Part shown: one piece after another, positions 17 to 64,000 of the stretch | How the letters are laid out: every line of letters begins with the position of its first letter | Numbering within the stretch: the first letter of the stretch is position 1 | From: a virus | Length of the DNA: 64,000 nucleotides | Reading direction: 5' to 3' (one strand) | IMG/VR virus record: IMGVR_UViG_3300025000_000067 | Location: 38,132-102,131 of that record | The notes under the pieces: model-generated | What the model was told of the DNA's origin: nothing | The model's database searches: none | What the model saw: the letters and a program-made list of their open reading frames with translations, nothing else | Made by a program: the position numbers and the translations under genes

Positions 17-283
17 ATGCCTAAGGCAGAGGAACCTTCAGAAGTCATGCTAAGCCCACAAGAAGCAGTAGATACTATGTACGAGGAGACTCATAGTGAG
101 TCTGAGAATACCCTAATGTTAAGTTCCACAGTAATCTATGTTAATAAAAGGAAATCTGCCTTTTCATTACATCTTGAAAAAAGTATGGATGGATCAGAGA
201 TCAAAGAGGCGCTTTTAAGTTATGCATCCATCTTAGATGACAAGAAAGTTTATGACCTTCTGCTTGATATAGGAGGAGACTAG
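17..283 (+). CDS. Hypothetical protein, 88 aa
   Basis: I do not recognise this acidic 88-residue protein. It has no membrane segment or cysteine motif; the second half (SEIKEALLSYASIL) looks helical. No convincing ribosome site precedes the ATG, but the window edge is only 16 bases upstream, so an earlier start cannot be excluded. Its PSEV residues are encoded by a CTTCAGAAG palindrome (36-44). It is followed by the first copy of the repeated promoter/leader unit, so transcription is probably re-initiated for the next gene. Confidence 0.55.
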   Translation: MPKAEEPSEVMLSPQEAVDTMYEETHSESENTLMLSSTVIYVNKRKSAFSLHLEKSMDGSEIKEALLSYASILDDKKVYDLLLDIGGD

Positions 284-295
284 CATCATCCATCA

Positions 296-362
296 TCCAC
301 TTTTTAAAGATACCTATGTATATTAATAATAGGGGATAGAGCCCCTAAAATAAGTGAAGGAG
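296..362 (+). promoter_or_regulatory. Promoter/leader repeat, copy A
   Basis: First of four related units (others at 551, 2297, 2887). The order is TCCACTTTTTAAA, then CCTATG-TATATT-AATA (a -10-like element), then a hairpin AGGGG/CCCCT (331-346), then CTAAAATAA and the Shine-Dalgarno GAAGGAG. The conserved TCCAC lies where a -35 box would be but does not resemble TTGACA. It probably drives the small membrane protein gene that follows. Confidence 0.7.
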
Positions 363-370
363 CTGGTCAT

Positions 371-529
371 ATGTTAAAGAGAATCACATTAGCCCATGTC
401 GTTATCTTGGTCCTTGTAGGCATAGCAGTCTTCAGTAAATACCATGAGCCCAAAGCGGTTCAAGGATTTGGTACAAAGGACAATATTGTACCAACGTTCC
501 ATGTGACTTCAAAAGCTACTAAAATGTAA
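371..529 (+). CDS. Small single-span membrane protein, 52 aa
   Basis: This 52-codon gene has a clear Shine-Dalgarno (GAAGGAG, 356-362) and sits right after leader copy A. After a short basic start (MLKR) it has one hydrophobic helix (about residues 5-21, ITLAHVVILVLVGIAVF), then a hydrophilic tail. It could be a membrane-anchored phage effector, or the helix could be an uncleaved signal anchor. No family recognised. The dedicated leader and clean ORF are the reasons to call it. Confidence 0.65.
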   Translation: MLKRITLAHVVILVLVGIAVFSKYHEPKAVQGFGTKDNIVPTFHVTSKATKM

Positions 530-533
530 TCTA

Positions 534-549
534 GGGGCCTACGGGCCCC
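534..549 (+). terminator. Hairpin after the small membrane protein gene
   Basis: GGGGCC and GGCCCC pair around a TACG loop immediately after the stop codon. The T-run follows only after GTCCAC, which belongs to leader copy B, so the hairpin and the repeat may work together as terminator then promoter. Confidence 0.5.
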
Positions 550-813: not shown

Positions 814-844
814 TTACTTCGGAAGTGGGTATATTAAGAGTATA

Positions 845-2963: not shown

Positions 2964-3872
2964 GTGCGAGACACATTTGAAATGGTCAATGGAGCGGTTA
3001 CAGTAATTTTAGGTGGAGCAGACCAGCAAGGTAAGTTTTCTTTTGAAGGTGTTAAAGTATCAACGAAACCTAACGTATTGTTTAAGTCCTATGTTCACAG
3101 CTTAGATAAAAAAGTTAGTGGAGAGCTTACAATCACCTCCCTTCGTGAGCACATCTATGGAAAGATCAAGGTTCAAGCAGATTCGGAGCTTAAAGATTAT
3201 ATCAAAAAGCATATCAATGACACGGCATTTTACACTGAGAAGGATGAATACGAATACAAGTTTTTCTCCCGCGGAGTTAACTCCAAAGATGCATATCCGG
3301 AAATTGACGAGAATATCAACTTAACTTACGGTAGTATTGGCCATGGCTTAGTTAACTGCACAATTAATAATAGATACTGTGTTTACGACCTTGTTCAGGA
3401 CAAATTTATAAGCATTAGATCATCTAGTTATAGCGATGCGGTAGATGTAACCCCACTGCAAATTTTCTATGGGAGAGAACTAAACTTCATTATTGCCCTT
3501 GAGCAGTACAAACTTGGTAAAGCTCACCCGGCCTTTACAGAAGTCGTTAACCTGAATAAGTTCCTTGAGGGTAAAAAGTCAGTGAAACTTAAAATGACCA
3601 ACGGTAAAGTTCATGAGCTTAAAAGCACATCTTCAGAAGTTCGGGCTAATCAAATTATAGAGTGCATCAATGGTGTCTTCTCTATGGAGAATAACTACCA
3701 CCTATCCCCGCGCCTTGAAAAAGATCACACAGGTTTAGAGTTCCTTGATTGCTTGCAGTTCGGTAAACAGACCTATAAAATTAATGCAGCGAACCTAGTA
3801 ATTAAAGCCCCGGCCCCAAAAGTAAAGGCACCTAAGACCCGGGTTCGGAAGTCTAAAAACGCAGCGAAGTAA
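2964..3872 (+). CDS. Hypothetical protein with basic C-terminal tail, 302 aa
   Basis: I choose GTG 2964 because an upstream in-frame GTG (2955) almost touches the Shine-Dalgarno, and because the homologous leader copy B places its start at the equivalent distance. The protein looks mainly beta in its first half and ends in a Lys/Pro/Ala-rich tail (KAPAPKVKAPKTRVRKSK), suggesting nucleic-acid contact or a flexible tether. No domain recognised. Confidence 0.6.
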   Translation: MRDTFEMVNGAVTVILGGADQQGKFSFEGVKVSTKPNVLFKSYVHSLDKKVSGELTITSLREHIYGKIKVQADSELKDYIKKHINDTAFYTEKDEYEYKFFSRGVNSKDAYPEIDENINLTYGSIGHGLVNCTINNRYCVYDLVQDKFISIRSSSYSDAVDVTPLQIFYGRELNFIIALEQYKLGKAHPAFTEVVNLNKFLEGKKSVKLKMTNGKVHELKSTSSEVRANQIIECINGVFSMENNYHLSPRLEKDHTGLEFLDCLQFGKQTYKINAANLVIKAPAPKVKAPKTRVRKSKNAAK

Positions 3873-3914: not shown

Positions 3915-4535
3915 ATGGAATTAGCTACTTTTGAGCTACCTAAAGGCTATGAACTTCTGAAGTCTAAGGTCAAAGAGGGCGAAACAGTTGATGGTGGCCC
4001 GGTGCGTATTATCCTAGCTGTAAGAGCTTCTGACGGGGAACATGTTACCTGGGAGTACAATGACAGGAGCAAGTGTTACTGGGGTCACTACTACAGAAGT
4101 AAGTGTTACTGGGGTCACTACTACAGAAGTTTAGAGGCTGCTGAGAGAGACTTCGAAACTAGGAACCCTGACTATACGAAAGCTATCAGAGATGCTAAGG
4201 CGATCTACGAAGAAATGAAGGCCCTCTATGCAGCAGGCAATGAGAACCCAGAGGATTACTTGGTAGTAGCTAAGAAGTATGCTAACTTAGTTACTAAGTA
4301 CGGAAGTTGCAGGGATGGGCTCCATACTGAATGGACTATTCCCGGCACAACATTCCTATCTTCACGGAATACACCTACCTATACTTCCTATAAATCGTTC
4401 ACCAGACTTCCGGATTTCCTTATATTTGCTGAGGACTGTGCTATGATGGTCTATCGCCTAAACGGTGGCGAAGGGTTTACTACGCCAGAGCTTGTGAAGT
4501 TCTTAGACAGTCGGCCTAAGTTCTTAGGGGAATAA
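3915..4535 (+). CDS. Hypothetical protein with in-frame 10-residue duplication
   Basis: Start ATG 3915 follows AAAGGAG at 9-base spacing; an upstream in-frame GTG overlaps the ribosome site. The unrecognised 206-residue protein contains an exact tandem duplication of ten residues (KCYWGHYYRS twice, about residues 53-72) from a perfect 30-bp DNA repeat. The aromatic- and Cys/His-bearing repeat might sit on the protein surface. The rest is helical in the middle, with FLDSRPKFLGE at the end. Confidence 0.6.
   Translation: MELATFELPKGYELLKSKVKEGETVDGGPVRIILAVRASDGEHVTWEYNDRSKCYWGHYYRSKCYWGHYYRSLEAAERDFETRNPDYTKAIRDAKAIYEEMKALYAAGNENPEDYLVVAKKYANLVTKYGSCRDGLHTEWTIPGTTFLSSRNTPTYTSYKSFTRLPDFLIFAEDCAMMVYRLNGGEGFTTPELVKFLDSRPKFLGE
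4071..4130 (+). repeat. Perfect 30-bp tandem duplication
   Basis: Bases 4071-4100 and 4101-4130 are identical (AAGTGTTACTGGGGTCACTA followed by CTACAGAAGT). The reading frame is kept, adding ten residues. Complete identity suggests a recent event. Confidence 0.95.
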
Positions 4536-5632: not shown

Positions 5633-6193
5633 TTGTCAATCGAACCTATTATTTGCCCAGCAGAGGGTAATGGGAAGGTCATGGACTTTCATCAGAAACT
5701 AGGTACTATTCTAGGTCTTACAGGCTCAAAAGAGCTGTACCTATGGGCTAGTAGCTCTGCGAGTGAATACCTGTTCTGCTATGGTAATGCAGAGTACGCG
5801 GTGTCTAAGATTCATTTCTACGATCCAGCAGGGAGAGTCTACACAAATCCTCATGGGTACTTTGGTTACTGGGAGGGCGAAACTAGCTACAGGTATCGAG
5901 GTATAAGCTTTAAGACAAATCAAAAGCTTCTGAAGCGTGTGAAGCTGACGAAAGACTTCAATTGGAAAAAGTCCTACGATGAAGATATTCTGTTCTTTGT
6001 ATCCCGGGGGAGGATGGGATACACCAAACCACAAGCTGAGATATATATCCCCTTCTCATACCTTAGGAACCTAGGGTTTACCGTTGAGGTTGCAGAGTTT
6101 GATCATAATGATGATGAGATTCTGCAGGTGGCTAAGCTGGTAGCGCCAGAATTTTCTGTGATCATAGGTCAAGAAGTTAAATTGAAGGAGTAG
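5633..6193 (+). CDS. Hypothetical protein, 186 aa, TTG start
   Basis: TTG 5633 is chosen because AAAGGAG (5617-5623) lies 9 bases upstream; no ATG fits as well. The protein is aromatic-rich (YFGYWEGETSYRYRG) and probably beta-rich. No family recognised. It is first in the cluster driven by the operator-bearing promoter at 5552-5593. Its LLKR residues are encoded by a CTTCTGAAG palindrome. Confidence 0.6.
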   Translation: MSIEPIICPAEGNGKVMDFHQKLGTILGLTGSKELYLWASSSASEYLFCYGNAEYAVSKIHFYDPAGRVYTNPHGYFGYWEGETSYRYRGISFKTNQKLLKRVKLTKDFNWKKSYDEDILFFVSRGRMGYTKPQAEIYIPFSYLRNLGFTVEVAEFDHNDDEILQVAKLVAPEFSVIIGQEVKLKE

Positions 6194-7428: not shown

Positions 7429-8043
7429 ATGAAAAGTATTAAGGGGATTGCTGCAGATGCTCGAGACTTAGAACTCATTGAATTAGCCTTTGCTAAAACT
7501 GAGAGAAATCAAGCTGCAACAATCAGCTCCAAGCTAATCTACGGAGCAGCAAGGCAGTGCGGTAAAGTTGACTTCACTGCTTCAGCTTTAGAAGGCCTAC
7601 TAAAAAGTTCACCCATCGAAGTCACGTGTTGCAAATGTGGTGATAAGGGCTTAGCTGAACCTATACCAAGAGTCGATGACAACGTTAAAGAGTGGATCTA
7701 TGAGCTCTGTGACGAAGCTTTTAAGGCCCTAGAGCGAGATCCTAATATACCACCTGATGAAGAGTGCCTACCCGGTAAACCCTGCGCCCGGTGCGCTGAA
7801 ATACTAGCTGAGGTCTTCTGTTCTGAGTGCGGGTGTTTGGTAGATCTGGATGAGCTTTCCAATGAAGAACGCCCTAATAAGGGGTTGTGCAAAGACTGCT
7901 TTGAGGCTATCAGGAGAGCTGGTATTTGCTCAGTATGCGCTTCAGAAGAGTACGATGCAGATGAGTTACAGGAGAGCAGGTGTCCCAGTTGTTATGAAGA
8001 GTTTAGTGCTTACATCGGTGTACAAAAAGAGGAGGAGGAATAA
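7429..8043 (+). CDS. Cysteine-rich zinc-ribbon-like protein, 204 aa
   Basis: At least five CxxC-type pairs are visible: CCKCGDKG, CARC, CSECGC, CSVCASEE and CPSCYEEF, with CKDC between. This indicates tandem zinc ribbons or treble clefs. The N-terminal 60 residues are helical and cysteine-free. Such proteins often bind nucleic acid or proteins; the target is unknown. The gene end carries the ribosome site of the deaminase-like gene 3 bases later. Confidence 0.6.
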   Translation: MKSIKGIAADARDLELIELAFAKTERNQAATISSKLIYGAARQCGKVDFTASALEGLLKSSPIEVTCCKCGDKGLAEPIPRVDDNVKEWIYELCDEAFKALERDPNIPPDEECLPGKPCARCAEILAEVFCSECGCLVDLDELSNEERPNKGLCKDCFEAIRRAGICSVCASEEYDADELQESRCPSCYEEFSAYIGVQKEEEE

Positions 8044-9040: not shown

Positions 9041-10172
9041 GGATTGGCATTGTCCTGAAGGATGCACGGGTGTAGCCCTTTATCAAGGTGCGTGTCCCGA
9101 TGATCTAGGTCCAGATGAACCATGTGTTAATGGAATCCTTGATGATGAGGAGTACAAAGCTTCAGAAGATTCAAGAGATGTTCCTACGCTATTCAAAACT
9201 GAGGAGGAGATACAGACAATGGTTGACTTTAACAAGCTGAGAGCTAATAGGGACCAGAAGGATAGGAGAACTCAACAGAAGACATCGGGAGTGGTTAAAC
9301 CGCTCCCTCGGACTTTTGTTGTATTAGACCTAGAGACAACGGGTTTTGATCGTGTTAATGACCGAATCATTGAAATCGGCGCGGTGAGATTTACAGATGG
9401 TGAGCCTGTGGCCATATTTAATACACTCGTTAACCCAGAAGTGCTTGTAAGTGAAGAGATAACTAAACTTACAGGGCATACCAACGAGGACCTTCTGAAG
9501 GGCATGAGTGAAGATCACGCAATTATCACCTTAATATACTTTCTTCGAAGTGAGCCTATCGTTGGCCACAATGTTCTTTTTGACTATGAGCTATTCTACC
9601 GGGCTGCTGGAAGAATTGAATGTGGTGTGTGTAACCCCTTAATCGATACACTCACCATTGCACGAGACAGGCACAAGTACCCTCACAAGCTCCCAGATAT
9701 GTGTAAGAGGTATAATGTTCACCAAGAAGGCTGGCATAGTGCTTATTTCGATGCCCTAGCATGCGGGGACCTGTTACTCGCTATGCACGCAGAGGATAAA
9801 AACTACCCCGAGGGTAAACAGGTAGCTGACTATACAAATGTGATTGGTTGGAAGAGGCAGTATGGAGAACCTAAGTGGGGACCATCATGGGTAACACTCA
9901 AAGGGCAGGGTGATATGCATGTTCAAGAAGGTCCTCGGAAGGCTAGGCAGGTTATGGTGCCTAAGCATGATAAACCAGATGCTAAGTGGTTCGGCAAAGG
10001 GTGTGCATATCAGGCATGCCAATTTGAAGAAAGTGGTGTTCAAGGGGAAGGTGTAGGTTTTCCAGTACTGACTGCCTGTAGCCATCCTGAAGCATCACAA
10101 AGCATACGAGAAGATAATTGCCAAGCCAACATGCTCTGTCCTATGGGTCTAAGTGATGACCTCCCATTTTGA
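9033..10172 (+). CDS. DEDDh 3'-5' exonuclease (DnaQ-like), 379 aa
   Basis: I choose ATG 9033, preceded by GAGGG, over an upstream in-frame GTG without a ribosome site. The central domain is a DnaQ/epsilon-type exonuclease: DLETTGF (near residue 98, first DxE), IVGHNVLFDYELF (exo II) and HSAYFDALA (near 235, exo III with His and Asp). It removes nucleotides from 3' ends and may proofread for the phage polymerase or degrade DNA. The N-terminus has a small Cys pair. The C-terminus has a separate cysteine cluster (CAYQACQF, CSHPEA, CQANMLCP), which suggests a metal-binding appendix. Confidence 0.85.
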   Translation: MIRDWHCPEGCTGVALYQGACPDDLGPDEPCVNGILDDEEYKASEDSRDVPTLFKTEEEIQTMVDFNKLRANRDQKDRRTQQKTSGVVKPLPRTFVVLDLETTGFDRVNDRIIEIGAVRFTDGEPVAIFNTLVNPEVLVSEEITKLTGHTNEDLLKGMSEDHAIITLIYFLRSEPIVGHNVLFDYELFYRAAGRIECGVCNPLIDTLTIARDRHKYPHKLPDMCKRYNVHQEGWHSAYFDALACGDLLLAMHAEDKNYPEGKQVADYTNVIGWKRQYGEPKWGPSWVTLKGQGDMHVQEGPRKARQVMVPKHDKPDAKWFGKGCAYQACQFEESGVQGEGVGFPVLTACSHPEASQSIREDNCQANMLCPMGLSDDLPF

Positions 10173-11484: not shown

Positions 11485-12112
11485 AACGTGTACTGATGTT
11501 GTAACCAGTCCTAATGGTAATCCTCTAGATTGTCTAAACTGTAGGTGCGTAGGGTGTGGGGAGTATAAAGATCCCTATAATGCAAACTGTGACTTATACC
11601 CAGAGCACGGGTGCCCTAAGTACCCACTAATACCTGAACCTGAGAAATGGTCCTATAACTTTACTGAAGACGGTCTATGGGATAATGAAGTCTTTGAAAC
11701 AGGTGAAGAAGCTTACGAGGCTGGTAAAGCGGAAGCCCTAGATCGTGGGGGCGATACCTTCTACATTGGCCAGTTGGTGCCTATCACTATTTCTAGTAAT
11801 GCTGCTGTTGATGTAGATGGGATATTTGATCTAATATCCCAACAATTAGACGATGAGTATGGGTCAGACTTCGAGCACGGTGAGCGGTGGTACGATGCCA
11901 TTACATCCGATGATAAGCTCACCTTGGAGGAGATGCTTAATGCAGCGTTCCACGAGTGGCTTCAGAAGACCAGCAACCAACCTACGAGTTTAACGATTAT
12001 TGACATTGATGAGTACTGCAAGACTGCAAACACATGGGTAGAGAAGCTTAGTACGCAGAAGGCAAAGAGGCTAAGTGAAAAATTAGGGGAGGATATGCTA
12101 AATGAAAACTGA
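11477..12112 (+). CDS. Cys-rich paralogue 3, 211 aa
   Basis: ATG 11477 follows AAGGAGG (11462-11468) inside the end of the previous gene and overlaps it by 8 bases; an upstream in-frame TTG has no ribosome site. The N-terminal module reads CLNCRCVGC ... CDLYPEHGCP; the usual second Cys of LCP is replaced by Tyr. The larger C-terminal part is acidic and helical and includes VPITISSNAAVDVDGIFDLI. Unrecognised. Confidence 0.65.
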   Translation: MPKTCTDVVTSPNGNPLDCLNCRCVGCGEYKDPYNANCDLYPEHGCPKYPLIPEPEKWSYNFTEDGLWDNEVFETGEEAYEAGKAEALDRGGDTFYIGQLVPITISSNAAVDVDGIFDLISQQLDDEYGSDFEHGERWYDAITSDDKLTLEEMLNAAFHEWLQKTSNQPTSLTIIDIDEYCKTANTWVEKLSTQKAKRLSEKLGEDMLNEN

Positions 12113-12540: not shown

Positions 12541-12590
12541 TTACTTAGTATGTGGGCAAGCTTACTAAAATAAAAGGAGTGGTTCGTACT

Positions 12591-14148: not shown

Positions 14149-14156
14149 TCTTCTGA

Positions 14157-14190
14157 AGCCCTAGTGCCACAAGGCATTGGGGCTTTTCCT
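14157..14190 (+). terminator. Rho-independent terminator
   Basis: AGCCCTAGTGCC (14157-14168) pairs with GGCATTGGGGCT (14173-14184) with two G-T wobbles, then TTTCCTAT. It closes the 12828-14148 operon. Confidence 0.8.
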
Positions 14191-17326: not shown

Positions 17327-17891
17327 ATTAACTAAGATAGTTGTTGAAGGCGATATCTTTAAAGTAGACAGCAGAATTATTGCTAAAAACTTTGAAAAGG
17401 ACCACAGGCACGTATTACGAGATATTGATAATCTAATTGCGCAAATAGATGTGTCCAAAATTGGGCACATCTCTGAAAGCTATTTTGTGCCAGCTAAGTA
17501 TGCAGATGTGCATGGTAGGGTACAAAGATTCTATGATATGACTTTTAGAGGTTTTATACTTCTTACTATGGGTTTTACAGGGGAAAAGGCATTTGCTTGG
17601 AAATTAAAGTACATTGATACTTTTGAGTGGCTGAGACAAGAGTACTTAAAAAAGCTAAAAGTACCTGAGCATCCCTTTATAAACCTAGCTACTATGACAG
17701 GTCTTCAAATGGATGTTTTTGAGCGTTTTGTGCCAGATGGTATGACGCTGAGGGAAGGGGCTTTTTGGTTTAATACAGACTTCTATAAGGATATAATTAG
17801 ATCCTATGAAAAGGGAGTAAGGAAGTTTGAGCGTAAACAAGCTAGGCTAAAACAAAAGAAATTAGAATCATCTTCAGAAGTTGAGGACTAA
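17301..17891 (+). CDS. Rha family phage regulatory protein, 196 aa
   Basis: Residues about 10-115 show the Rha signature: VDSRIIAKNFEKDHRHVLRDI, followed by YDMTFRGFILLTMGFTGEKA and an aromatic/Lys helix FAWKLKYIDTF. Rha proteins are encoded by many temperate and lambdoid-like phages and interfere with phage growth in some hosts; the mechanism is not well established. The C-terminus is a long basic helix. AAGGAG lies 4 bases before ATG 17301; ATG 17319 is an alternative. Confidence 0.85.
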   Translation: MNRYIPMNELTKIVVEGDIFKVDSRIIAKNFEKDHRHVLRDIDNLIAQIDVSKIGHISESYFVPAKYADVHGRVQRFYDMTFRGFILLTMGFTGEKAFAWKLKYIDTFEWLRQEYLKKLKVPEHPFINLATMTGLQMDVFERFVPDGMTLREGAFWFNTDFYKDIIRSYEKGVRKFERKQARLKQKKLESSSEVED

Positions 17892-21383: not shown

Positions 21384-21407
21384 TAATCTTCGGAAGTAAA
21401 AGGGCTA

Positions 21408-34918: not shown

Positions 34919-34960
34919 CCTTCGGAAGTCTGTGTATAATTAATTCCTAAAGTCTGGTAA

Positions 34961-42180: not shown

Positions 42181-42256
42181 TATGTAATTTATCTTGCCAT
42201 TTACTTCCGAAGTTGGTACTATTAACAATAGTTAAATATTTAGGGCAACAAAATCC

Positions 42257-42361: not shown

Positions 42362-42391
42362 TTACACCTACTTCGGAAGGTGGTGAAATGA

Positions 42392-47028: not shown

Positions 47029-47763
47029 GTGCAAACTCCTGTATTAAATGTTGTTAAGCTTGAGGAGATGCTTGATCGTAGGGGCAGACCTGTTAGGTGG
47101 CAAGAAACTATTATATGCTCCTGCTGGAACCCTGATAGCGGTTCTCCGGATTATACGTGCCTAGCTTGCCATGGTAAAGGGCATGTGTACCAGACACCTA
47201 TAGAATCAAAAGCCTTAATTACGAGTATCACACTGAGTAAGGACTTTGAGGCCATGGCCGGGGTATTTGAAGTTGGGGATGCGGTAATGACCGTACCAAA
47301 AAGAATCCCTGTACGCCACCCACTAAATAGTATGCCTACAGGTCAATACACAAACAACCCAATCTTCGGTATTGGTATGTATGATAAGATCACACTTCTT
47401 GATGATGAGTTCAAGTCTTCTGAAGTTCTGGTCAGAGACACACCTATTAATGCTCGACCACCAGATACCCTGCTTAATACTGACATCACCCACGTTAAGT
47501 CCATACAAAAGTACAATCCTATGACAGGTGGAGTAGTGATCTATAGACCTGGGATAGACTTTGAAATGGCAGGAAATGTCGTACTATGGCTTGAAGATGG
47601 GCTGTCACCTGAAGTAGGGGAGCAGTATAGCGCTGCATATTACCATAGGCCAACATACGTAGTTACAGCAACGCTACCGAAGCCTAGACATCAAGATGGT
47701 CAGGACTTTCCGCGCTATGTAGCCCTGCGCTACTTGTCTGGAGGAGTTGAGCGCATTGTATGA
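47029..47763 (+). CDS. Head completion protein (probable), 244 aa
   Basis: GTG start after AAGGGGGGGTGG. A zinc knuckle CSCWNPDSGSPDYTCLACHGKGHV lies at residues 28-50 (three or four Cys plus His). The rest is beta-rich, with VGDAVMTVPKRIP. It lies in the connector cluster between the adaptor and tail completion genes, so a stopper or completion role is likely. It overlaps the next gene by ATGA. Confidence 0.58.
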   Translation: MQTPVLNVVKLEEMLDRRGRPVRWQETIICSCWNPDSGSPDYTCLACHGKGHVYQTPIESKALITSITLSKDFEAMAGVFEVGDAVMTVPKRIPVRHPLNSMPTGQYTNNPIFGIGMYDKITLLDDEFKSSEVLVRDTPINARPPDTLLNTDITHVKSIQKYNPMTGGVVIYRPGIDFEMAGNVVLWLEDGLSPEVGEQYSAAYYHRPTYVVTATLPKPRHQDGQDFPRYVALRYLSGGVERIV

Positions 47764-48599
47764 GTTTGCTAACAATTGCAGCAGATGTTCCTAACCTAGA
47801 TAATGTGCTCAGATCCGTTGAAAAGGCAGGACAGGGGAACCTCCCGTATACTTCTGAAGCTGTGCGTGCAGCTCTTACAGATGTTATACAGAGAACTTGG
47901 GTTGAGTATGCGTCTGGTGTTACAGTGACCTACTCAGGGGGAACGTTCCACATTAGCGTTGTTTCGGGGGAATACACCCGCAGTATTCAAGAAGGTCTTA
48001 AGATGCTGGGGAATCTTACAGGTGAAGTTATGACGACCTCAGGACATGGAAGACTCATTGAAGATGGCATAAAACCCTACAACCAAAAAGACGGACTCCT
48101 ATCATCACCAAAAGCTAAGGTTGGAAAAGGTGGCTCTCGATACATCACAGTACCCTTTAGGCATGGAACACCGGGGACAGTTACGATGGCAGCGATGCCT
48201 AAGCACGTACACGACCAAGCAAAGACACTTGGGTTCAGTCGCAAGAATAACTTCTTAACTGCCTTAGTTACCGGACGAAAGTATGCATGGGGTGGTCACC
48301 TGCAGGAGACGTCTGATGGGCAAAGAAGTCACGTAAGCCCGCACCCAGGCAAGGGGTACACATGGAAAACCGGGCTATTTAGTGGCATGGTGAAAATGGG
48401 TAAGCCAAACCATTCTCAATATATGACCTTCCGAAGAGTATCGACTAACTCAGATCCTGCATCTTGGCAATTCCCTGGGGTTAAGCCTAGGCCAATACGT
48501 GAAGCAGTTGTGGAAAATACACGAGAGGAAGTCTTACAGCTTATTCGGAGTGGCTTTGAGATGGACCTGTACTTTATGGGCTTAGGGGGTGGTCAATAG
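47760..48599 (+). CDS. Connector/tail completion protein (gp10-like position), 279 aa
   Basis: An N-terminal helical region (AVRAALTDVIQRTWVEYAS) is followed by a Gly/His/Lys-rich middle. Position and the 4-base overlap with its neighbours fit the HK97-gp10 slot of the head-tail joining module. No firm motif. Confidence 0.5.
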   Translation: MSLLTIAADVPNLDNVLRSVEKAGQGNLPYTSEAVRAALTDVIQRTWVEYASGVTVTYSGGTFHISVVSGEYTRSIQEGLKMLGNLTGEVMTTSGHGRLIEDGIKPYNQKDGLLSSPKAKVGKGGSRYITVPFRHGTPGTVTMAAMPKHVHDQAKTLGFSRKNNFLTALVTGRKYAWGGHLQETSDGQRSHVSPHPGKGYTWKTGLFSGMVKMGKPNHSQYMTFRRVSTNSDPASWQFPGVKPRPIREAVVENTREEVLQLIRSGFEMDLYFMGLGGGQ

Positions 48600-49173: not shown

Positions 49174-49389
49174 ATGCCTGATAAAAAGAAAACACCTTCA
49201 GAAGAAGAAGATGTGGCGTACCCAGCAGAATTAGCCCGTCAAATGACCTTAGCTGAATTTATCACTGAGTTAAGGCCACATAGGGGGCTAGTGGCTAGTT
49301 TTAAGGTTGAAGAAAAGGACCTCAGCCCTAGGAGTCAAGTAGCGTGGGCAGAGGCCTTTAAAGCTCAATCTGAACGCGTCTATAAATAG
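49174..49389 (+). CDS. Small hypothetical protein, 71 aa
   Basis: Acidic-basic short protein (MPDKKKTPSEEEDVAYPAEL) with one helix. It sits directly before the sheath gene in many-gene context and has a good ribosome site AAAGGGGGAG. Role unknown. Confidence 0.55.
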   Translation: MPDKKKTPSEEEDVAYPAELARQMTLAEFITELRPHRGLVASFKVEEKDLSPRSQVAWAEAFKAQSERVYK

Positions 49390-51408: not shown

Positions 51409-51435
51409 AACACTCGCATATTAACTTCCGAAGTA

Positions 51436-52332: not shown

Positions 52333-55300
52333 ATGAGCTCTACAGAACAGGCTGTACGTGTTACAGCACAAGGAGAATTTGGACAGCTGCAACGAGGGCT
52401 TAAAGACCTTCAAAGCGATCTTAAAAATGTTTTAGGCGAAGTGGATAAGGGTGCACGTAGGGGTGGGATGTTTGATGATACCCAGCTAAGGGCACTAGAT
52501 GTTTACAGAAGGCGCTTTAAAGAAACCCTAGCGGATCTAGACAAGGAATTTGAAAAACAAGCAGACTCAGTAGATGCTCTTAACGCGAAGATGAAAAAAG
52601 CTTACGCTTGGGAACGTGAAGAGCTTAAGGATCAGATAAAACAGCGTCGAGAGAATTTAGACGTTATTGATAGAACAAGGAGACAGCTTGAGCAGACGTA
52701 CCAAAGGCGTAATACAGAAGCTCAAAGCTACGGGAGCTCTAACCCTGCACCTAGTGGAAGATCTAGTGGATCAGATAGCGGATCAGATAGCGGATTTGCT
52801 ATGCTCGGGGCAGGTTCTGTCATATCAAGAACTTTGGGTGCTGTTAGTATTATCGGTAAATTTGCCTTAGGCTTAGCTGGCGTGGGTAGCCTACTTGGTA
52901 TGGCTACAGAAGCTTATCAGTTAGCACATACACGAGAGATAGGATCACTAGACTTAGCACAACGTCTTAGAGGTAATGGCTTTAGTGGCTCAAATACGAA
53001 AATGTATGACGATGTAGGAGCTATTGGGCGAAGCAGTGGTATGGGATACTCTCAAGCGGAGTCATGGCAGTTACAGGAGGCCTATACTTCAGAAGCTGGG
53101 GAGTTGGGGGCAAAAGGACAGGAAGCTCTTCAGAAGTTCTCTCGTGGCTATGGCTTAGATGCTACTACTGTGGGTAGTATGGCCGGAAATGCTAAACAAC
53201 TTGGTGGAGTATCTGGGCCTAAACAATTTGCTGATATGATTGCTACCTCTGTAGAAAAGTCAGGTATGACACCTCGCATTTTAGAGGTTATGAAGACAAG
53301 TAATACCCTCCTTCAGAATCTCAATACATCCTTTAAAGATGGAAGCACTTCGCAGATCATAGCATATCAGACAACCCTAGATAGACTAGGTAACGAAAAT
53401 GGTATGACAAGGCTCACAGGTGCTCAAGGTGCTAATGTTATAGGCGGACTGGGAGGAATATACCAACCGGACAACGATAAGTGGAAATGGATGGGTATAA
53501 CAGCCCTTCAGAAGTACAATCCAGACAAATATAGCAAAATGGGACTCTATGATCTGGAGTCATCGTTTGAAGATGGCATGCAGAATAAAGATAACATACC
53601 AGCTATGGCAAAGTACCTTAAAGAGACATCCGGTGGGGATAATGATAACTTTAAGCGCATGATGCAAGGTTGGCTTATGGACGGTGGATTTAAGGCCACA
53701 AAGAGTGAAGTAACAGAACTCGATAAAGTAACTGATGGGTTTACAGCTTTTGATCCAGACAAAATCGATAAGGTCTTAGGCACCGACTCTGGGGCAAAAT
53801 ACGACACCGAGAGAAAGGGTGAACTAGGGCAGCATATTATGGACGTTGATGCTGAATTTAGTAAAAACTTGGAAAAAATAGGACAGAAAATGCTACCTAT
53901 TGTTACACAAATGAAGTCTAGCATTAATGATCTATATGGATTAGTTGATGGATCAGCTAACTTTTCTGAAGTTTTTGGAAAGATAGTAAAATTATTTGAA
54001 GATACAGGTGTAGGAGCCTTTGTATCAACTCCAAAGGAACCTACAGATGGTACAGGGGGTACAGACTCAGGCTTAGGAACAGCAGCAGGCATAGTTATTG
54101 GTGGTGGAATAGCTGGGCGCTTAGGTGTTAAAGCCTATGAAAGGTTTAGAAGTGCAGACACAGAACTAATAGAAGAAGGTCCGACTAGAAGTAGGGCCGA
54201 ACAGTACCAAAGATTGCAAGACAGGGTTACATCTTCAGAAGGGGTTGGTGGCTCAGCTTCAGAAGGAGTGGGTACTAGGTTTGGGCGTTTTGTAAATAAG
54301 GTAAAGGGACTTGGCAAAGGTACTAATACCTTAAACAGTATACTTAGTGTCATACCTGCTGGTATAGCGGGTTATGAGGCTGAAAAAGAGAATCCAGATG
54401 CTCCTTTTATAGACAAATTAGGTAGCGCACTGGAAAAGCTACTCCCTTTTGACTGGAATAAGACTAATTTCTCAGCAGAGTCTATGGGTGACTCTGATAT
54501 GCTAAGTACTACGAGCACAAAGCCCGGAAGTCTAGCTAATTTGAGTAAAATGGGTGTTACAGATATCTTAGATCTTAGCACAAAAGGAAAATCATCTTTA
54601 GAGGACTTAAAAACTAGGGGTTTAATGTCCTATACATCCATTGAACAAATCACAGCAGCTAAATTCGATGAAATTAAACAGATTCACAAAAATTACTATG
54701 ATCTTTTAGGTATTAAAGACGGTGTAAGTAGCGGTGTTGGCCGTACAGCAGGGAATACGACGGAAGAAAAAGTGTGGAACATGTTAGCTGATAAGGGTCT
54801 TAAGCCCGGAGCTATTTCAGGTATCATGGGTAATATTAATGCTGAATCAAGTTTTGACCCAAAAGCTGTTAATCCTAGTAGTGGGGCTTATGGTGTTGGT
54901 CAATGGCTAGGTGGTCGCCTAGACAACTTAAAAACCTATGCAAAAGACTTAGGTAAAGATCCTAGTGACCTGCAGACGCAAATAGATTTCCTTTGGAAGG
55001 AATTTAATGGTGGCGACCCAACGACAGGCTCTATCCTAAATTCGCATGGTGGACTTAGTGCCTTTAATGAGATGAATGCTTCTGATGCATCTAGCACCTT
55101 TGAAAAATCTTTTGAACGCTCCGGTGGCGCTCTATTACAGGAACGTGCAAAATCAGCGAACGGCTATTTTAATAAGTATGGAAGCCTAGGGACTTCAGTA
55201 GGCTCTCCCACAGGTGGTGTTTTTAGGAATTGGCAGAGCAAGATAACATCAAAGTTCGGAGCTAACCGTGGTGACCATGAGCACTCAGGCTTAGACATTG

Positions 55301-57470: not shown

Positions 57471-57501
57471 GTACACCTTCGGAAGGGAATGGGGGTATTT
57501 T

Positions 57502-58991: not shown

Positions 58992-59912
58992 ATGATAGAG
59001 CATGTACTAACAGATGCTGATTCCCTACAATCACTAGCTCTTACATACCTAAAAGATGCTACACGCTGGGGGGAAATTGCTGATTATAATAGGCTTAGGT
59101 ATCCGTACATACTTCGAAGTAAGGAAGATATAAAAGACTTCTTCGGAAGTGGTTATATTACTATTGTACGTTCTGGGTACCAAAATGAAGCGCTTATACA
59201 AAAGGGTTGGACGTTTAAAACAGAATCAAGCCTACTAACAGGTAACACTGTTAGGGTATTCGAAGTTATAGAGGATACTGTTATACCCGCCGGGGTTCAG
59301 CAGTACGATGTTCCTCTCCGGTGCATCGTCCCTGGAGACTTCGGAAATGTTATGGAGTATACGATTACAGAAGCTGGGGATAATACCGTGCAGCTGAGTG
59401 GTATACAGTACCTAAGCATCTATAATGAATTAAAATTTTCTGGTGGTAGGACCTTGGATGTACGAATTACCGGAGAGTCTATATACATCCCTGTAGCATC
59501 AACTATTATGGCCCCAGAGGACGCCATAAAGATGCTTAGTTTCCTCGGTGGAGAAGATATACTACTTGATGATACAGGAAACCTTATTATAGAAGACGGT
59601 GGGGACTTGGCATCCATAAGTGGCACCAACAATATCCGCTATGCTGTAGCATCACGCTTAAAATCGGAGATTAATGATATAGCTCAACACCCGGAATACG
59701 GAACAGACTTACAGGACTTAATTGGCAGCCCAAACATCTCTAACCGAGAAAAGCTTATGGAGATTGCTGTCTACAGGTCTTTAGCTCAGGAAAGTAGGAT
59801 TACAGAAGTTTCTATAGTGAGCCTTACCGTGACTGGGACAAGTGTATTGTTAAGCTTAACTTACAAACTGTCGATGAACGGAGCATCGGACAGTATCACC
59901 CTAAGCTTATAG
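58992..59912 (+). CDS. LysM-like N-terminus plus gp25-like baseplate wedge protein, 306 aa
   Basis: Residues 1-60 show a LysM-like start (DADSLQSLALTYLKDATRWGE). Residues about 190-300 resemble the gpW/gp25 wedge domain (DLASISGTNNIRYAVASRLK, HPEYGTDLQDLIGSP, followed by AVYRSLAQESRI). gp25 proteins start sheath assembly. The fusion of LysM and gp25 in one chain is common in Gram-positive myophages. Its neighbour is the baseplate J gene. Confidence 0.75.
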   Translation: MIEHVLTDADSLQSLALTYLKDATRWGEIADYNRLRYPYILRSKEDIKDFFGSGYITIVRSGYQNEALIQKGWTFKTESSLLTGNTVRVFEVIEDTVIPAGVQQYDVPLRCIVPGDFGNVMEYTITEAGDNTVQLSGIQYLSIYNELKFSGGRTLDVRITGESIYIPVASTIMAPEDAIKMLSFLGGEDILLDDTGNLIIEDGGDLASISGTNNIRYAVASRLKSEINDIAQHPEYGTDLQDLIGSPNISNREKLMEIAVYRSLAQESRITEVSIVSLTVTGTSVLLSLTYKLSMNGASDSITLSL

Positions 59913-59937: not shown

Positions 59938-61107
59938 ATGTCTTTTGAGCGAAAATCTATGGAGTACCTCACCAATCGGATGATTGGTTGGGTGCAGGGT
60001 GTTTCCACTAGATTGACTGACTTTCGCGTCGGTTCAAAAAATCGGGCCCTTATTGAAGCTGTAGCATTAGTTACTGAGGAGCTCTATGATAAAGTTTTTA
60101 GAGGCCTTAGACAGCTCATTGAAGATAGTATCTATGCTATCTTCAACTTCAATAAGATACCTGTAATCTATACTACAGGCATAGTCACTTTCTCTAGGAG
60201 TACGCCTGCAAACCAGAATTATACTATTACTGTAGGGACAATGCTTATGTCCCAAGCAACTCAGTACAGTGCACCTATTCGCTTCTATACGAGTGCTGAT
60301 GCTGTGCTATCTACTGGGACTACATCTGTGGACGTCCCTGTCATCTGTGATTTACCGGGAGTACAAGGAAACATAGCAGCAGGAACTTTAACGACATTTA
60401 TACAAAAACCTATAGGTATTGAAGCAGTTACAAATTCCTTAGAATTTAGTACAGGTGCAGAAGAAGAAACTAAAGAAAATCAGAAAGATAGATTTCAAGA
60501 ATTCTTTGAAGCCCAAGCCCGGGGAGTTCTGCAATCCGTGGAGTATGGTGCTAAACTGGCAAAAGTAATAGACCCTACAACAGGCAGTCCTATAGAAGTC
60601 GTGTTGCAGGCCGTAGCTATAGAAAACCTACCTATCCGTAAAGGCGAAGTTGACCTCTATGTGTGGAATGGTGTAGGAGTAGCATCAGCAGACCTTATTA
60701 CTGCCATAAATACTATACTAAAAGGGTACTATGATTCGGATGGAAATCCTGTGTATGGGTATAAGCCCGCTGGTATTATGGTAAACGTATACTCAGCGTC
60801 AACTAAACTCGTCAAAGTTAGAGTAATTGCTGTAGCTGAAATATACACAACTGTAGACCTTCTGAAGCCTCTAATGGAGGCTGAGATAACTAGGTACTTT
60901 GCCAGTTTAATTATTGGGCAAATGATCGAGCAGCCAAACCAGACCGTTGTACAATCTGCTTTACAGGCAGGTATTAAAAAAATAGATGGAGTGTATGATG
61001 TGAAGGTATACCTGTCAATTGATGATGGGGTAACATTTACCACAGATAATGTTACTGTGCTAGGGGCACAAATTGCTCTAGTAAGTTTTCCGGTAGTGTA
61101 CGTTTAA
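59938..61107 (+). CDS. Baseplate J-like protein, 389 aa
   Basis: N-terminal helix (ALIEAVALVTEELYDKVF), then GIVTFSRSTPANQNYTITVGT, VDVPVICDLPGVQGNIAAGTL and NLPIRKGEVDLYV are typical of gpJ/gp6-like wedge proteins. It surrounds the hub and transmits the contraction signal. Length is normal. Confidence 0.85.
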   Translation: MSFERKSMEYLTNRMIGWVQGVSTRLTDFRVGSKNRALIEAVALVTEELYDKVFRGLRQLIEDSIYAIFNFNKIPVIYTTGIVTFSRSTPANQNYTITVGTMLMSQATQYSAPIRFYTSADAVLSTGTTSVDVPVICDLPGVQGNIAAGTLTTFIQKPIGIEAVTNSLEFSTGAEEETKENQKDRFQEFFEAQARGVLQSVEYGAKLAKVIDPTTGSPIEVVLQAVAIENLPIRKGEVDLYVWNGVGVASADLITAINTILKGYYDSDGNPVYGYKPAGIMVNVYSASTKLVKVRVIAVAEIYTTVDLLKPLMEAEITRYFASLIIGQMIEQPNQTVVQSALQAGIKKIDGVYDVKVYLSIDDGVTFTTDNVTVLGAQIALVSFPVVYV

Positions 61108-61120
61108 GGGGTGAAGTTAC

Positions 61121-62593
61121 TTGAAAATGATGAGCAAGCTTTTAGGCCACCTAGGTAGGGTATGGAACACAGCCCCTAAGGACTTTGAATCTTTAGTCTT
61201 ACAGCAAAATAACGGTGCACATAGCCTAATAACTGTAGAAACAAGTCAAATATCCTTTCACTCTACACCCTTTCGAAGCAGCATGACTGCCAGGCAAGTT
61301 CTATCTCTAGATGCATATAGTCTTAGTGGCCTTGCCGAGGCGATCAATAGCCTAGGGTACAGCGCATATATTACACAGAAAGCGGTAGACTCTGGTTATG
61401 GAAGTCTAAAAGCCTGTACTTTGATGCCTATTGAAAACGTACCTATACTAAGCGCTACGTTATCATCCTTTACTTCACCTTTATGGCAACTTTTATATCC
61501 GTTATCCCGCCTACTAGAGGAATTAGATAACGATACAGAAAAAGCTATGGCTCAGGTGTACACGAGTTCAATTACCGGGACGTGGATGGATTATTGGGCA
61601 ACTTTTTTTAAGCTTAAGCGCTTACCTGAGGAATCGGATACTCACTTCCAAAAACGCCTGTTTGTGGCTCTAATGAACATGAAAACCAATAATGTAGCCC
61701 TTCAGGAGCTTCTGAAGTACACAACAGGTGGCAGTGCTATAGTTTCAGACCATGCACCAGCTCAGTTTAAGGTTTTAATTGACCCTAAATATATGAGTAC
61801 GGTAGCATCTGTTCACCAAATTATTACAGAAGCTAAAGGTGCCGGCATTGATTACTTCCTAAATTACCTAAGTGTAGAAGAGGAGAGCTACATAGCCTAC
61901 TTCAGGGATACTAACGGGGTGTCTTTTGCAGACTCTGATGCCGTGCGTAGCTTAATGAACATGACCTGTTCTGAGCATACTTATGATTATGAACAGGACA
62001 GGCTCAAGATGTTTCGGGTCGGCTTTACCAAAATACTTACAGGTGGTTTTAAGCTGCTGCCGAAGACAACAGTATCTAAGAGTATGAGAGCAGTGCTTGC
62101 TGAAAGCTCTATGAGTGCCCTAGGGTCCTATACTGAAGCTTTTGTAGCTCCCCTAACCTCAGACTCTAAGAGTATGCAGACAACTAATTCTGATGTATAC
62201 TTAGCACCAACCGAAGCTGAGCACAGAGAAGTGCACTTGAGTGAACTGACTGAAGCAGTTGTAGACATACACACACTGGAAGTATTATGTACTTTCCTAG
62301 AGGAATTTGAAACCCCGCTAGAAGAAGTTGCATCTAAGATAGCACTTGTAACGTGCAATAATGCCTATGTACCACCTTCCGAAGTTCAGAGTAAAAGTCT
62401 AGTGCTTACCACAGAGGAAAGTTATAAAGATCCTACTATTAAGGGTACTTGGGGATTTACGACTAACTATAGTCGCACTTTTAGCCCTACAAATGCATTG
62501 GCTAAGGCTAAGTTATCAAAACGAGATATACGAATGCAGGAAACTTTAAGTATGCTTTTAACAGTGGATGGAGTAATCATCAAAGCGATGTAA
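61121..62593 (+). CDS. Baseplate/tail protein I-like, 490 aa
   Basis: TTG 61121 is 7 bases after AAGGGGTGA; ATG 61127 is an alternative. The segment WQLLYPLSRLLEELDNDTEKA and FKLKRLPEESDTHFQKRLF fits tail protein I/gp53-like wedge proteins that follow J. The C-terminal half carries repeats of ESYKDPTIKG- and VDIHTLEVL-type sequence and is less familiar. Confidence 0.6.
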   Translation: MKMMSKLLGHLGRVWNTAPKDFESLVLQQNNGAHSLITVETSQISFHSTPFRSSMTARQVLSLDAYSLSGLAEAINSLGYSAYITQKAVDSGYGSLKACTLMPIENVPILSATLSSFTSPLWQLLYPLSRLLEELDNDTEKAMAQVYTSSITGTWMDYWATFFKLKRLPEESDTHFQKRLFVALMNMKTNNVALQELLKYTTGGSAIVSDHAPAQFKVLIDPKYMSTVASVHQIITEAKGAGIDYFLNYLSVEEESYIAYFRDTNGVSFADSDAVRSLMNMTCSEHTYDYEQDRLKMFRVGFTKILTGGFKLLPKTTVSKSMRAVLAESSMSALGSYTEAFVAPLTSDSKSMQTTNSDVYLAPTEAEHREVHLSELTEAVVDIHTLEVLCTFLEEFETPLEEVASKIALVTCNNAYVPPSEVQSKSLVLTTEESYKDPTIKGTWGFTTNYSRTFSPTNALAKAKLSKRDIRMQETLSMLLTVDGVIIKAM

Positions 62594-62613
62594 AAATAGA
62601 GGAGGAAAACACT

Positions 62614-63189
62614 ATGCAATACTCAGAAGAGTTCAAAACCCCAAAGGGATTTATAGATGTTTACGGCCACAAGGGTAGCCCAGAGTTTGTAAAAATTGGA
62701 CTAGGGGAAAAACAGGGGTACTTCGTTATCCCTAAAGATTCAATTGTTCAAGAAATGCATGTTAAGAATTTAGTGGTTGCTAAGGCATCTAAATTTATGG
62801 CAAAGCGTATGGTCCCCGGTGTTTCATGGGGTGCAGGAATAGGATACCTAGAGCTTGGCACAGGTGTTGGCACAGGAACTACTCAAGCACCGCAGGCAGA
62901 AGCTTCAACTCAGGAGGCACTTAGAACATCACTTATACGGAATCCTATTTCAGCGTGGACCTATCTTGACGGTGATGGCGCACCAACTGCTACAGAGACA
63001 AACGTGGTGCAGTACTCAACAACTTTCACAGAATTAGAGGCCATAGGTGCTCTAGTGGAGATGGGCTTATTCGGTGGTGACGCAACAGCTACTGCAGGGA
63101 CCGGATATATGTTTAACTACAAGGTCTTTGCGGTCTGGAATAAAGATGACACTATGCAATTAACTATCCGCTGGGAGATAACATACTAA
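62614..63189 (+). CDS. Tail-associated protein, 191 aa
   Basis: Contains PKGFIDVYGHKGSPEFV, FMAKRMVPGVSWGAGIGYLELGTG and a C-terminal beta domain ending TMQLTIRWEITY. Similar proteins lie between baseplate and tail-fibre genes. It may connect fibres to the baseplate. Strong ribosome site GAGGAGG. Confidence 0.6.
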   Translation: MQYSEEFKTPKGFIDVYGHKGSPEFVKIGLGEKQGYFVIPKDSIVQEMHVKNLVVAKASKFMAKRMVPGVSWGAGIGYLELGTGVGTGTTQAPQAEASTQEALRTSLIRNPISAWTYLDGDGAPTATETNVVQYSTTFTELEAIGALVEMGLFGGDATATAGTGYMFNYKVFAVWNKDDTMQLTIRWEITY

Positions 63190-63229
63190 AACTAGGTGCC
63201 ATACCTAGGTTAAGAGGAGGGGTAGTCAG

Positions 63230-64000
63230 ATGCCTGATTTTACAGTTGTGGATAAATTTGACCCGAGTAAGTCATTTACTCGGGTGGTCTTCGGAAGTGA
63301 TTCTGTTCTTTTAGAGGTAGAGTTAAATGAGCTTCAGAAAATCCAGAATTACCAGCGGGCACTTTTAGCACGCTTACTAGTGACTAATGGGTTTGTAGCA
63401 AAAACAGCTATGACGCTTTCTAGTAGCATTCTGACCGTCCCAGCAGATACTATACTAGTTAATGGGGACTTCATCGAAGTCCTAGAGAATATGTCACTAG
63501 GTGTCTCAAGCGGTGACACGGTGTACGCTGCTATTTCTGAAGTTGAGGTTACGAGCTTAACCACCCTAAAAAAGAGCGGAAATCTAAGTGGTGGGAGTAC
63601 CATTACTAACGATCTTTTAGATGGTCGCGTGGGTGAAGAAACTACGCATCGGACACAAAAGCAAATTCAGCTTGTGAAGTCAAATTCTGACACAAGCAAA
63701 ACCTATATACCAGTAGCAACGATTACAAGTGTAGACACATTTACTGACAATCGTACTTTAGTAGTACCCACTTCTGTAATACAAACCCAACCCCTCACCA
63801 TTCCACATGGACTAAGCTTAGTCACAACAGACCGCAAAACGCCCATTAATGCGCTTGCGTTTAATGGAATAACTAGACTTAATATACTAGGTAAAGATGG
63901 AAACTGTGAGGATATTAGTAAGTGGGGTTATGGAGGATGTTCTATCTCACTTGATTCTTCTAATTATGCAGTTGGTAGTAATAGCATTAAAATAACGTTA
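63230..64000 (+). CDS. Tail fibre protein, N-terminal part (cut by window edge)
   Basis: ATG 63230 follows GAGGAGGGG; 257 codons remain open to the edge. The first 130 residues (VLLEVELNELQKIQNYQRALLAR ... LTVPADTILVNGDFIEVLE) are a baseplate-attachment domain of the kind found on fibres (DUF4815-like). The visible end (GKDGNCEDISKWGYGGCSI ... SNSIKITL) begins a carbohydrate-binding-module-like beta domain. The rest should carry the receptor-binding region. Confidence 0.72.
   Translation, partial: MPDFTVVDKFDPSKSFTRVVFGSDSVLLEVELNELQKIQNYQRALLARLLVTNGFVAKTAMTLSSSILTVPADTILVNGDFIEVLENMSLGVSSGDTVYAAISEVEVTSLTTLKKSGNLSGGSTITNDLLDGRVGEETTHRTQKQIQLVKSNSDTSKTYIPVATITSVDTFTDNRTLVVPTSVIQTQPLTIPHGLSLVTTDRKTPINALAFNGITRLNILGKDGNCEDISKWGYGGCSISLDSSNYAVGSNSIKITL

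Follow-up and report, generated by a model that had tools for sequence, protein, structure and literature searches.

A palindromic word, CTTCNGAAG, iterated across the genomes of a contractile-tailed phage family: a putative binding array

Introduction

The cyanobacterial palindrome HIP1, GCGATCGC, occurs once per 1131 bp in Synechocystis 6803, is judged to be maintained by selection and contains methylase sites; its function is debated, with chromosome structure, recombination and regulation all under discussion (PMC6604393, in excerpt). Here we describe the word CTTCNGAAG in a stretch of 64,000 bp of viral DNA (the window), which is positions 38,132–102,131 of the 102,131-bp IMG/VR virus record IMGVR_UViG_3300025000_000067 (the whole record is called G000 below). 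Like HIP1, it is a short palindrome far above compositional expectation, it recurs about once per kb along the whole genome, and it is maintained by selection. Unlike HIP1, which is cellular and contains methylase sites, it is carried by a phage family, its spacer is a single base, and its symmetry extends into the flanks.

Repeated words are also described in other phages. The stoperators of cluster A mycobacteriophages are more than 20 asymmetric 13-mers, situated in promoters and short intergenic spaces and oriented with transcription (PMC9283540, in excerpt). The 15-bp SPbeta element read by MrpR lies in the promoter regions of ten named genes (PMC10516654, in excerpt); as described there, it is comparable as a repeated regulatory word of a Bacillus phage with a phage protein as reader, and differs in its placement at promoters. 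Mycobacteriophage Alexphander gp94 binds with little sequence discrimination, and the abstract on it describes no iterated word. The CodY box, AATTTTCWGAAAATT, has a TTC-N-GAA core, and in CodY, FadR and TubR the dimerised recognition helices enter one major groove, with the wings in the flanking minor grooves (PMC10415144, in excerpt). This core and the geometry of a winged-helix dimer fit the phage site. However, CodY sites are degenerate, AT-rich and regulatory, and we claim no CodY homologue in the phage.

Results

Over-representation of the word

There are 51 exact copies of CTTCNGAAG in the window (at least 49 had been counted by eye in an initial annotation), compared with a mean of 0.91 and a maximum of 4 in 100 dinucleotide shuffles. 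The whole record has 79, which makes the word both the commonest gapped word of the form 4-1-4 in G000 (25 for the runner-up) and the commonest palindrome (16 for the runner-up). Its single-mismatch neighbours occur 1–17 times each in G000. The spacer there is exactly one base, the variants CTTCGAAG and CTTCNNGAAG being found three times and twice, respectively. All four bases occur at the centre, as had been noted initially, in numbers near the base composition (A 30, T 20, G 17, C 12 in G000), and the core therefore has perfect dyad symmetry.

The sites in the window are listed below. They are exact matches, and being palindromic have no strand. "Not intact" refers to the alignment to the relatives G003 and G004, and "deep relatives" are the four other near-complete genomes introduced in the next section.

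36..44, CTTCAGAAG site
817..825, CTTCGGAAG site, intergenic
3631..3639, CTTCAGAAG site
3954..3962, CTTCTGAAG site
5927..5935, CTTCTGAAG site
7940..7948, CTTCAGAAG site
9160..9168, CTTCAGAAG site
9492..9500, CTTCTGAAG site
11960..11968, CTTCAGAAG site, not intact in G003, G004
14150..14158, CTTCTGAAG site, intergenic
17872..17880, CTTCAGAAG site, not intact in G003, G004
20891..20899, CTTCTGAAG site
21388..21396, CTTCGGAAG site, intergenic
22891..22899, CTTCTGAAG site
24581..24589, CTTCCGAAG site, not intact in G003, G004
25057..25065, CTTCCGAAG site, aligned with a site in 3 of 4 deep relatives
28898..28906, CTTCGGAAG site
29150..29158, CTTCAGAAG site
30549..30557, CTTCGGAAG site
30999..31007, CTTCTGAAG site, common to 2 of 4 deep relatives; not intact in G003, G004
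31685..31693, CTTCAGAAG site
32297..32305, CTTCAGAAG site
34920..34928, CTTCGGAAG site, intergenic
35504..35512, CTTCGGAAG site
37124..37132, CTTCTGAAG site
38739..38747, CTTCTGAAG site
38897..38905, CTTCAGAAG site
39266..39274, CTTCAGAAG site
39623..39631, CTTCGGAAG site
40550..40558, CTTCAGAAG site, aligned with a site in 3 of 4 deep relatives; not intact in G004
41731..41739, CTTCTGAAG site
42204..42212, CTTCCGAAG site, intergenic
42371..42379, CTTCGGAAG site, intergenic
42773..42781, CTTCAGAAG site, common to 2 of 4 deep relatives
44680..44688, CTTCGGAAG site
47417..47425, CTTCTGAAG site, aligned with a site in 3 of 4 deep relatives
47851..47859, CTTCTGAAG site, not intact in G003
48428..48436, CTTCCGAAG site, aligned with a site in 4 of 4 deep relatives
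49196..49204, CTTCAGAAG site
51425..51433, CTTCCGAAG site, intergenic
53087..53095, CTTCAGAAG site
53128..53136, CTTCAGAAG site
53506..53514, CTTCAGAAG site
54233..54241, CTTCAGAAG site
54257..54265, CTTCAGAAG site
57477..57485, CTTCGGAAG site, intergenic
59141..59149, CTTCGGAAG site
60859..60867, CTTCTGAAG site
61709..61717, CTTCTGAAG site
62376..62384, CTTCCGAAG site
63289..63297, CTTCGGAAG site

As described in the initial annotation, eight copies are intergenic (817, 14150, 21388, 34920, 42204, 42371, 51425 and 57477), and six of these lie 2–17 bases past a stop codon (4, 2, 5, 2, 17 and 7 bases). The gene caller marked the copies at 36 and 9160 as noncoding, yet both are within listed open reading frames (ORFs).

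The size of the excess depends on the null model. It is about 56-fold against dinucleotide shuffles, compared with the figure of about 50-fold given initially; it is 7-fold against synonymous shuffles, and 3- to 46-fold against Markov models of orders 5 to 1, which were trained on the same motif-bearing sequence.

A frequent word could be a by-product of codon or dipeptide usage. Most G000 copies (61 of 79) are indeed in called genes, the other 18 being not wholly inside genes called with the filter used, and two frames dominate: the phases are 29, 22 and 5 on the plus strand, with 5 more copies in minus-strand genes. Every frame is nevertheless used, and synonymous shuffling of 117 G000 genes (300 runs) gave 8.65 ± 2.94 copies, with a maximum of 19, against the 61 observed. 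This null is generous to chance, because the motif-enriched codon counts are kept. Sites are also denser outside called genes (1.14 per kb; 14 sites, two of them miscalled) than inside them (0.72 per kb), and relatives conserve the word at synonymous positions, as described below. The by-product explanation is thus already refuted, and we give it a negligible probability. The initial annotation was right that protein sequence is not the cause, and its description of a DNA-level palindrome, plausibly read by a dimer, withstands both the synonymous shuffles and the Markov models.

The family of carriers

Relatives were gathered by searches with the terminase, the primase and a small protein, gp26 (see below), and by a search for three clustered copies of the word. 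CTTCNGAAG is found in all 15 family records counted (G000, G001–G008, G021 and G101–G105), ten of which are fragments of less than 50 kb and which include near-duplicates of G000 (G001 100% and G002 99.7% identical); the family record 3300001041_000046 was left out of the counts. The five near-complete genomes compare as follows, the control being the word read backwards.

G000: 79 copies in 102 kb, control 5; GC content 43%; mean gap between sites 1288 bp; core/accessory density 0.78/0.77 per kb
G005: 133 copies in 105 kb, control 21; GC content 45%; mean gap 782 bp; density 1.28/1.25 per kb
G021: 161 copies in 99 kb, control 15; GC content 55%; mean gap 599 bp; density 1.56/1.77 per kb
G101: 134 copies in 94 kb, control 5; GC content 57%; mean gap 694 bp; density 1.49/1.29 per kb
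G102: 191 copies in 107 kb, control 11; GC content 55%; mean gap 551 bp; density 1.76/1.83 per kb

The word is the commonest 4-1-4 word in each of them; in the short fragments it leads solely since a palindrome is counted on both strands. Between 55 and 59 G000 proteins are matched in G005 and G021, mostly at 30–70% identity.

Other genomes were reached by a scan for triple motifs, which gave at least 120 genome stretches, with whole genomes counted for 50 of the 80 loci listed. On the viral side 42 of 51 records were counted whole and the remainder as loci only; among the 42, G021 has 161 copies and the next has 17 in 185 kb. Four relatives lack the excess, as judged from 50 kb of each: Moorella phage MTATph1 has 0 copies, B. 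velezensis plasmid p3 has 1, Bacillus phage vB_BboS-125 has 0 and the SPO1-like Goe26 has 2.

These counts bear on the suggestion that the array is driven by the host: that the host chromosome has the same iterated word, or that a host protein or methylase reads it, and that the phage mimics it. HIP1 is just such a cellular word and contains methylase sites. From protein kinship, the host of this phage family would be a member of the Bacillota. However, among 398 genomes from the phylum of a Mediterraneibacter genome the densest has 183 copies in 2.4 Mb (0.08 per kb), compared with 0.8–1.8 per kb in the phages. (A second draw shared 397 genomes with these 398, and both are one sample of one phylum.) The densest of 50 genomes chosen for their clustered copies have 609–660 in 3.2–3.6 Mb. 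Neither set contains a comparable carrier, and we regard a host-driven array as improbable. A milder cellular excess of the same word does occur in flavobacterial genomes: three of Salinimicrobium (G070, G071 and G090; loci L107, L108 and L143) and one of Altibacter (G072; L109) have 543–660 copies in 3.2–3.6 Mb, 7–8 times the read-backwards control. A search with the major capsid protein in 299 genomes of one phylum, run without a positive control, gave no match at 1e-60.

The stretch of vB_BboS-125 (L209, 1–50000) has milder excesses of other words, CAGCTG (85 vs 24 expected) and ACGNCGT (61 vs 16), the latter being in one frame in 15 of 18 copies within nine large genes. Other phages may therefore carry iterated palindromes. 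This phage also has a helix-turn-helix (HTH) protein near its primase gene.

Selection on the sites

The relative G003 (82% nucleotide identity) has 26 of 31 aligned sites intact, compared with 8.2 expected. Among codons whose amino acid is unchanged and whose third base falls on a fixed site position, 63 of 65 are unchanged in sites, where 43.7 would be predicted from the same codon types elsewhere, compared with 705 of 1149 in flanks. The same test with G021 gives 58 of 81 in sites and 386 of 1159 in flanks, and the expectation from the same codon types is surpassed in all seven genome comparisons. The initial annotation had proposed to look for conservation against synonymous change in relatives, and third bases on site positions are indeed held. 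In the four deep relatives 8 of 39, 15 of 43, 8 of 42 and 7 of 38 sites are intact, against local expectations of 0.43, 1.12, 0.79 and 0.77. These comparisons show the word to be under purifying selection at the DNA level, and we consider it very likely that the copies make up a selected array of binding sites.

Core and accessory DNA have similar site densities in all five genomes (listed above), and newly acquired genes therefore carry or gain sites.

Arrangement along the genome

Sites are found throughout G000, with 5–10 in each full 10-kb bin. A bias in spacing, for which the initial annotation had proposed a test, is present in three of the five genomes, where the gaps are more even than random: the coefficient of variation (CV) is 0.761 in G000 (p 0.005), 0.722 in G021 (p 0.0002) and 0.850 in G102 (p 0.011). 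In G000 gene starts attract no excess of sites, either in the 100 bp upstream (9 sites vs 9.1 expected) or in the gene's first 100 bp (8 vs 9.1), and there is no clear preference along genes.

The initial annotation had suggested a stoperator-like repressor site. A phage repressor bound at all the sites would then silence transcription genome-wide and shut down the prophage, probably a phage-plasmid. Plasmid-like lysogeny is made plausible by a match to ParM in three of the five genomes (G000, G021 and G101), the position of six of the eight intergenic window sites just after stop codons is in line with such a role, and cluster A stoperators are likewise many sites across one phage genome, read by one phage protein. 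Stoperators are however asymmetric and confined to promoters and short intergenic spaces, whereas the phages here have 79–191 symmetric sites, 43 of the 51 in the window are not intergenic, and there is no link to gene starts in G000. Similar density in core and accessory DNA also argues against silencing, which we regard as unlikely.

The largest site-free gap of G000, 4477 bp (record 11088–15565, outside the window), takes in gp26 together with part of the primase gene. In each of the four other near-complete genomes a gap at a different place is the largest.

Architecture of the site

Flanks were analysed using 1396 symmetrised half-sites from the five near-complete genomes. There are preferences for A at −9 (z 9.8), A at −6 (z 9.2), G at −7 (z 6.6), T at −12 (z 6.6) and C at −8 (z 6.5), and for a purine at −5, with no |z| above 4 from −13 to −35. 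The extended consensus is TnnACGAR-CTTCSGAAG-YTCGTnnA, a symmetric site of about 25 bp. The one-off words GTTCNGAAG and CTTCNGAAC have similar flanks (4.0–5.2 vs baselines of 3.4–3.6), and some of their copies (for GTTCNGAAG, 36 in G021 and 34 in G101) may be true sites of lesser strength. The centre is G or C in 127 of 133 sites in G005, 145 of 161 in G021, 107 of 134 in G101 and 151 of 191 in G102; in G000 this holds for 10 of 14 non-coding sites and 19 of 65 coding sites.

A footprint of about 25 bp around a strict core suggests a protein dimer. Half-site centres are only 5 bp apart, which would put the two reading heads in a single major groove. From this spacing we infer that a dimer would read the word in this way, with additional contacts in the flanking minor grooves.

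The initial annotation had also mentioned a modification site. A short, exact-looking palindromic core is what a phage-encoded DNA methyltransferase might recognise. The extended flank preference does not suit such an enzyme, and a pattern search of stop-free stretches of at least 100 amino acids (aa) found no D/N/S-PP-Y/F/W/H or G-x-PCQ-type motif in G000, G005 or G101. In these three genomes the word again differs from HIP1, with its methylase sites. Scattered D/N/S-PP matches are present in G021 (7) and G102 (3). A methyltransferase encoded by the phage is thus a very unlikely reader.

Separately, CTTCGAAG has 68 copies in G005 (L015–L020), compared with about 15 expected. It could be taken for a spacer variant of CTTCNGAAG, but its flanks there are at baseline (3.43 vs 3.56); the two are probably unrelated, and CTTCGAAG is possibly a second iterated word of this relative.

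Gene content and the possibility of a self-mark

G000 is a contractile-tailed phage, with genes for a tail sheath, baseplate, major head protein, portal and large terminase, the last having 32% identity to SPO1-type phages. It also encodes a primase-MCM protein, an SNF2 helicase, a Cas4-like nuclease and a RuvC-like protein, and one of its proteins has a G005 homologue that is a family A DNA polymerase. Other features are:

Record 31734–37730, minus strand, outside the window: leftward block of Replic_Relax, TraG/HerA-like ATPase, ParM and a small protein
Window 27452–34918: giant polyvalent-type protein, 2488 aa, matching RadC, LPD1 and ParB-like nuclease
Window 35024–41662: giant polyvalent-type protein, 2212 aa, matching SNF2 helicase
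Window 26258–27160, minus strand: leftward ORF of about 290–300 aa, overlapping the end of a rightward gene

The small protein of the leftward block is read as ParR-like, without a family match. ParM is matched in three of the five near-complete genomes, as are Replic_Relax and the ATPase. Judged by its genes the block is a phage-plasmid module that varies within the family, and because G000 encodes ParM, Replic_Relax and the TraG-like ATPase, a plasmid-like prophage state is suggested. The product of the ORF at 26258–27160 looks like an HTH protein at its start, and has no match in G005, G021, G101 or G102.

The word could alternatively be a self-mark for a DNA-processing machine, i.e. a palindromic Chi-like or loading site. 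Such a site might serve packaging, the giant polyvalent proteins, or the recombination and exonuclease proteins (SNF2 helicase, Cas4-like nuclease and RuvC-like protein). All of these proteins, and a terminase-small-subunit-like protein, have homologues in the four other near-complete genomes; one giant protein matches RadC and ParB-like nuclease; and uniform coverage would suit a break or end at any position. On the other hand, guide sequences such as Chi and KOPS are asymmetric, strand-biased octamers, and Chi acts in an orientation-dependent manner, whereas a palindrome can have no strand bias. The symmetric flank preference over about 25 bp is also better suited to a dimeric binder. We rate a self-mark of this type as no likelier than silencing.

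Candidate readers

On the assumption that the reader is phage-encoded, it is expected in all five near-complete genomes. The candidates are:

Record 11799–12053, outside the window: gp26, 84 aa, MerR/RacA-like winged helix, leading candidate
Record 17730–18104, outside the window: gp32, 124-aa winged helix, GTG start inferred from relatives, leading candidate
Window 27186–27440, plus strand: 84-aa protein with a weak, below-cutoff MerR_1 match, minor candidate, matched in the four other near-complete genomes
Window 15171–15992, plus strand: terminase-small-subunit-like HTH protein, minor candidate, matched in the same four
Window 16758–16925, minus strand: lone leftward 55-aa ribbon-helix-helix (RHH) protein, Pfam RHH_3, considered and set aside (see below)

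The initial annotation had pointed to the RHH and winged-helix proteins of the window as possible partners. The RHH protein has no tblastn match in G005, G021, G101 or G102 and is probably not the reader. The winged-helix idea fares better, although the stronger candidates, gp26 and gp32, are outside the window. Both have homologues in all four other near-complete genomes, and they flank the primase gene, one on either side. Other proteins were set aside: neither ParM nor the ParR-like protein of G000 gives a tblastn match (E 0.001) in G005 or G102, both of which have the array, and Replic_Relax and the TraG-like ATPase have none in G101 and G102. The first of these results argues against the array being the centromere of a ParMRC partition system.

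gp26 has a weak HTH_17 match, and its recognition helix (SRxTFYR) and wing (NPxGKxxxRRF) are invariant in six sequences, two of which are 99% identical. Its predicted fold matches a pSK1 Par-centromere structure (Z 6.2), RacA (Z 5.7) and BldC, within a range of Z 5.4–6.2. The model of gp32 matches CggR-DNA (Z 10.4), AspA (Z 9.4) and MarR (range Z 9.4–10.4). RacA, pSK1 Par and AspA are segregation proteins (from PDB titles and general knowledge), and gp26 and gp32 are, like them, small winged-helix proteins; the resemblance is one of predicted fold, among many winged-helix matches, and not of sequence membership. That gp26 or gp32 is the reader is our conjecture.

Discussion

The explanation that we favour is that CTTCNGAAG, with its weaker symmetric context of about 25 bp and a centre that is preferably G or C in four of five genomes, would form a genome-wide binding array for a sequence-specific dimeric protein. 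A reader encoded by the phage itself seems somewhat the better supposition. The dimer would occupy sites every 0.5–1.3 kb and treat the phage chromosome as one unit, so as to organise, condense, position, segregate, protect, package or self-mark it during replication, recombination or packaging; control of individual genes would not be the job of the array. We favour a role at the scale of the chromosome over local transcriptional control because coverage is uniform and extends to accessory genes, because the G000 sites lie without regard to gene starts, and because spacing is even in three of the five genomes; even so we hold the two about evenly balanced. A nucleoid- or partition-type array, as raised in the initial annotation, is a plausible role. 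Taken as a whole, this HIP1-like, chromosome-level explanation has in our view roughly an even chance of being correct.

Several observations weigh against it. Concerning the sites, 57 of the 79 in G000 have no counterpart at the corresponding position in any of the four deep relatives (unaligned sites included), and single positions are therefore mostly replaceable; positions can be held for long periods, yet turnover is high. Spacing is not more even than random in G005 (CV 0.942, p 0.30) or G101 (CV 1.0, p 0.58). The flank baseline was the average of the outer positions, and a phase-matched control, for G000 only, was weaker (z 2.7). The centre is unbiased in G000 and 79–95% G/C in the four others, so that specificity may differ. 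Concerning the reader, at least four proteins with HTH-type matches are common to all five genomes, and a host protein may be the reader instead. That gp26 and gp32 go without a tblastn match (E 0.01) among 50,697 phage records counts in their favour but, at 84 and 124 aa, is weak evidence; for the terminase, head protein and primase that this phage encodes there are matches in 747, 627 and 65 phage records. The model of gp26 is poor (predicted local distance difference test score, pLDDT, 67), and its top fold match is an unrelated ribosome-assembly protein (Z 6.5, root-mean-square deviation 7.5), while gp32 is good in one of five AlphaFold2 (AF2) models (92; the others 55–66). With Z values this low, fold matches may reflect no more than the common winged-helix arrangement.

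In its most specific form, the favoured explanation is a phage chromatin or self-identity code, in which a phage-encoded winged-helix dimer sits on a selected lattice of 80–190 CTTCSGAAG sites, fairly even in several genomes and carried or gained by incoming genes to equal density, and organises, segregates, protects or packages the chromosome as a unit. We put this forward tentatively, with rather less confidence than the general explanation.

By title and the start of the abstract, we found no publication in the open-access literature on this word or on an iterated-palindrome phage of this kind. Selected iterated palindromes are an open puzzle in cyanobacteria, where HIP1 is hard to dissect at thousands of copies per genome. 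With 80–190 sites in phage genomes of about 100 kb, and two small leading candidates, the function of a palindrome lattice becomes testable. If it is true that the reader organises or marks the phage chromosome, this would be an unusual, sequence-specific phage chromatin.

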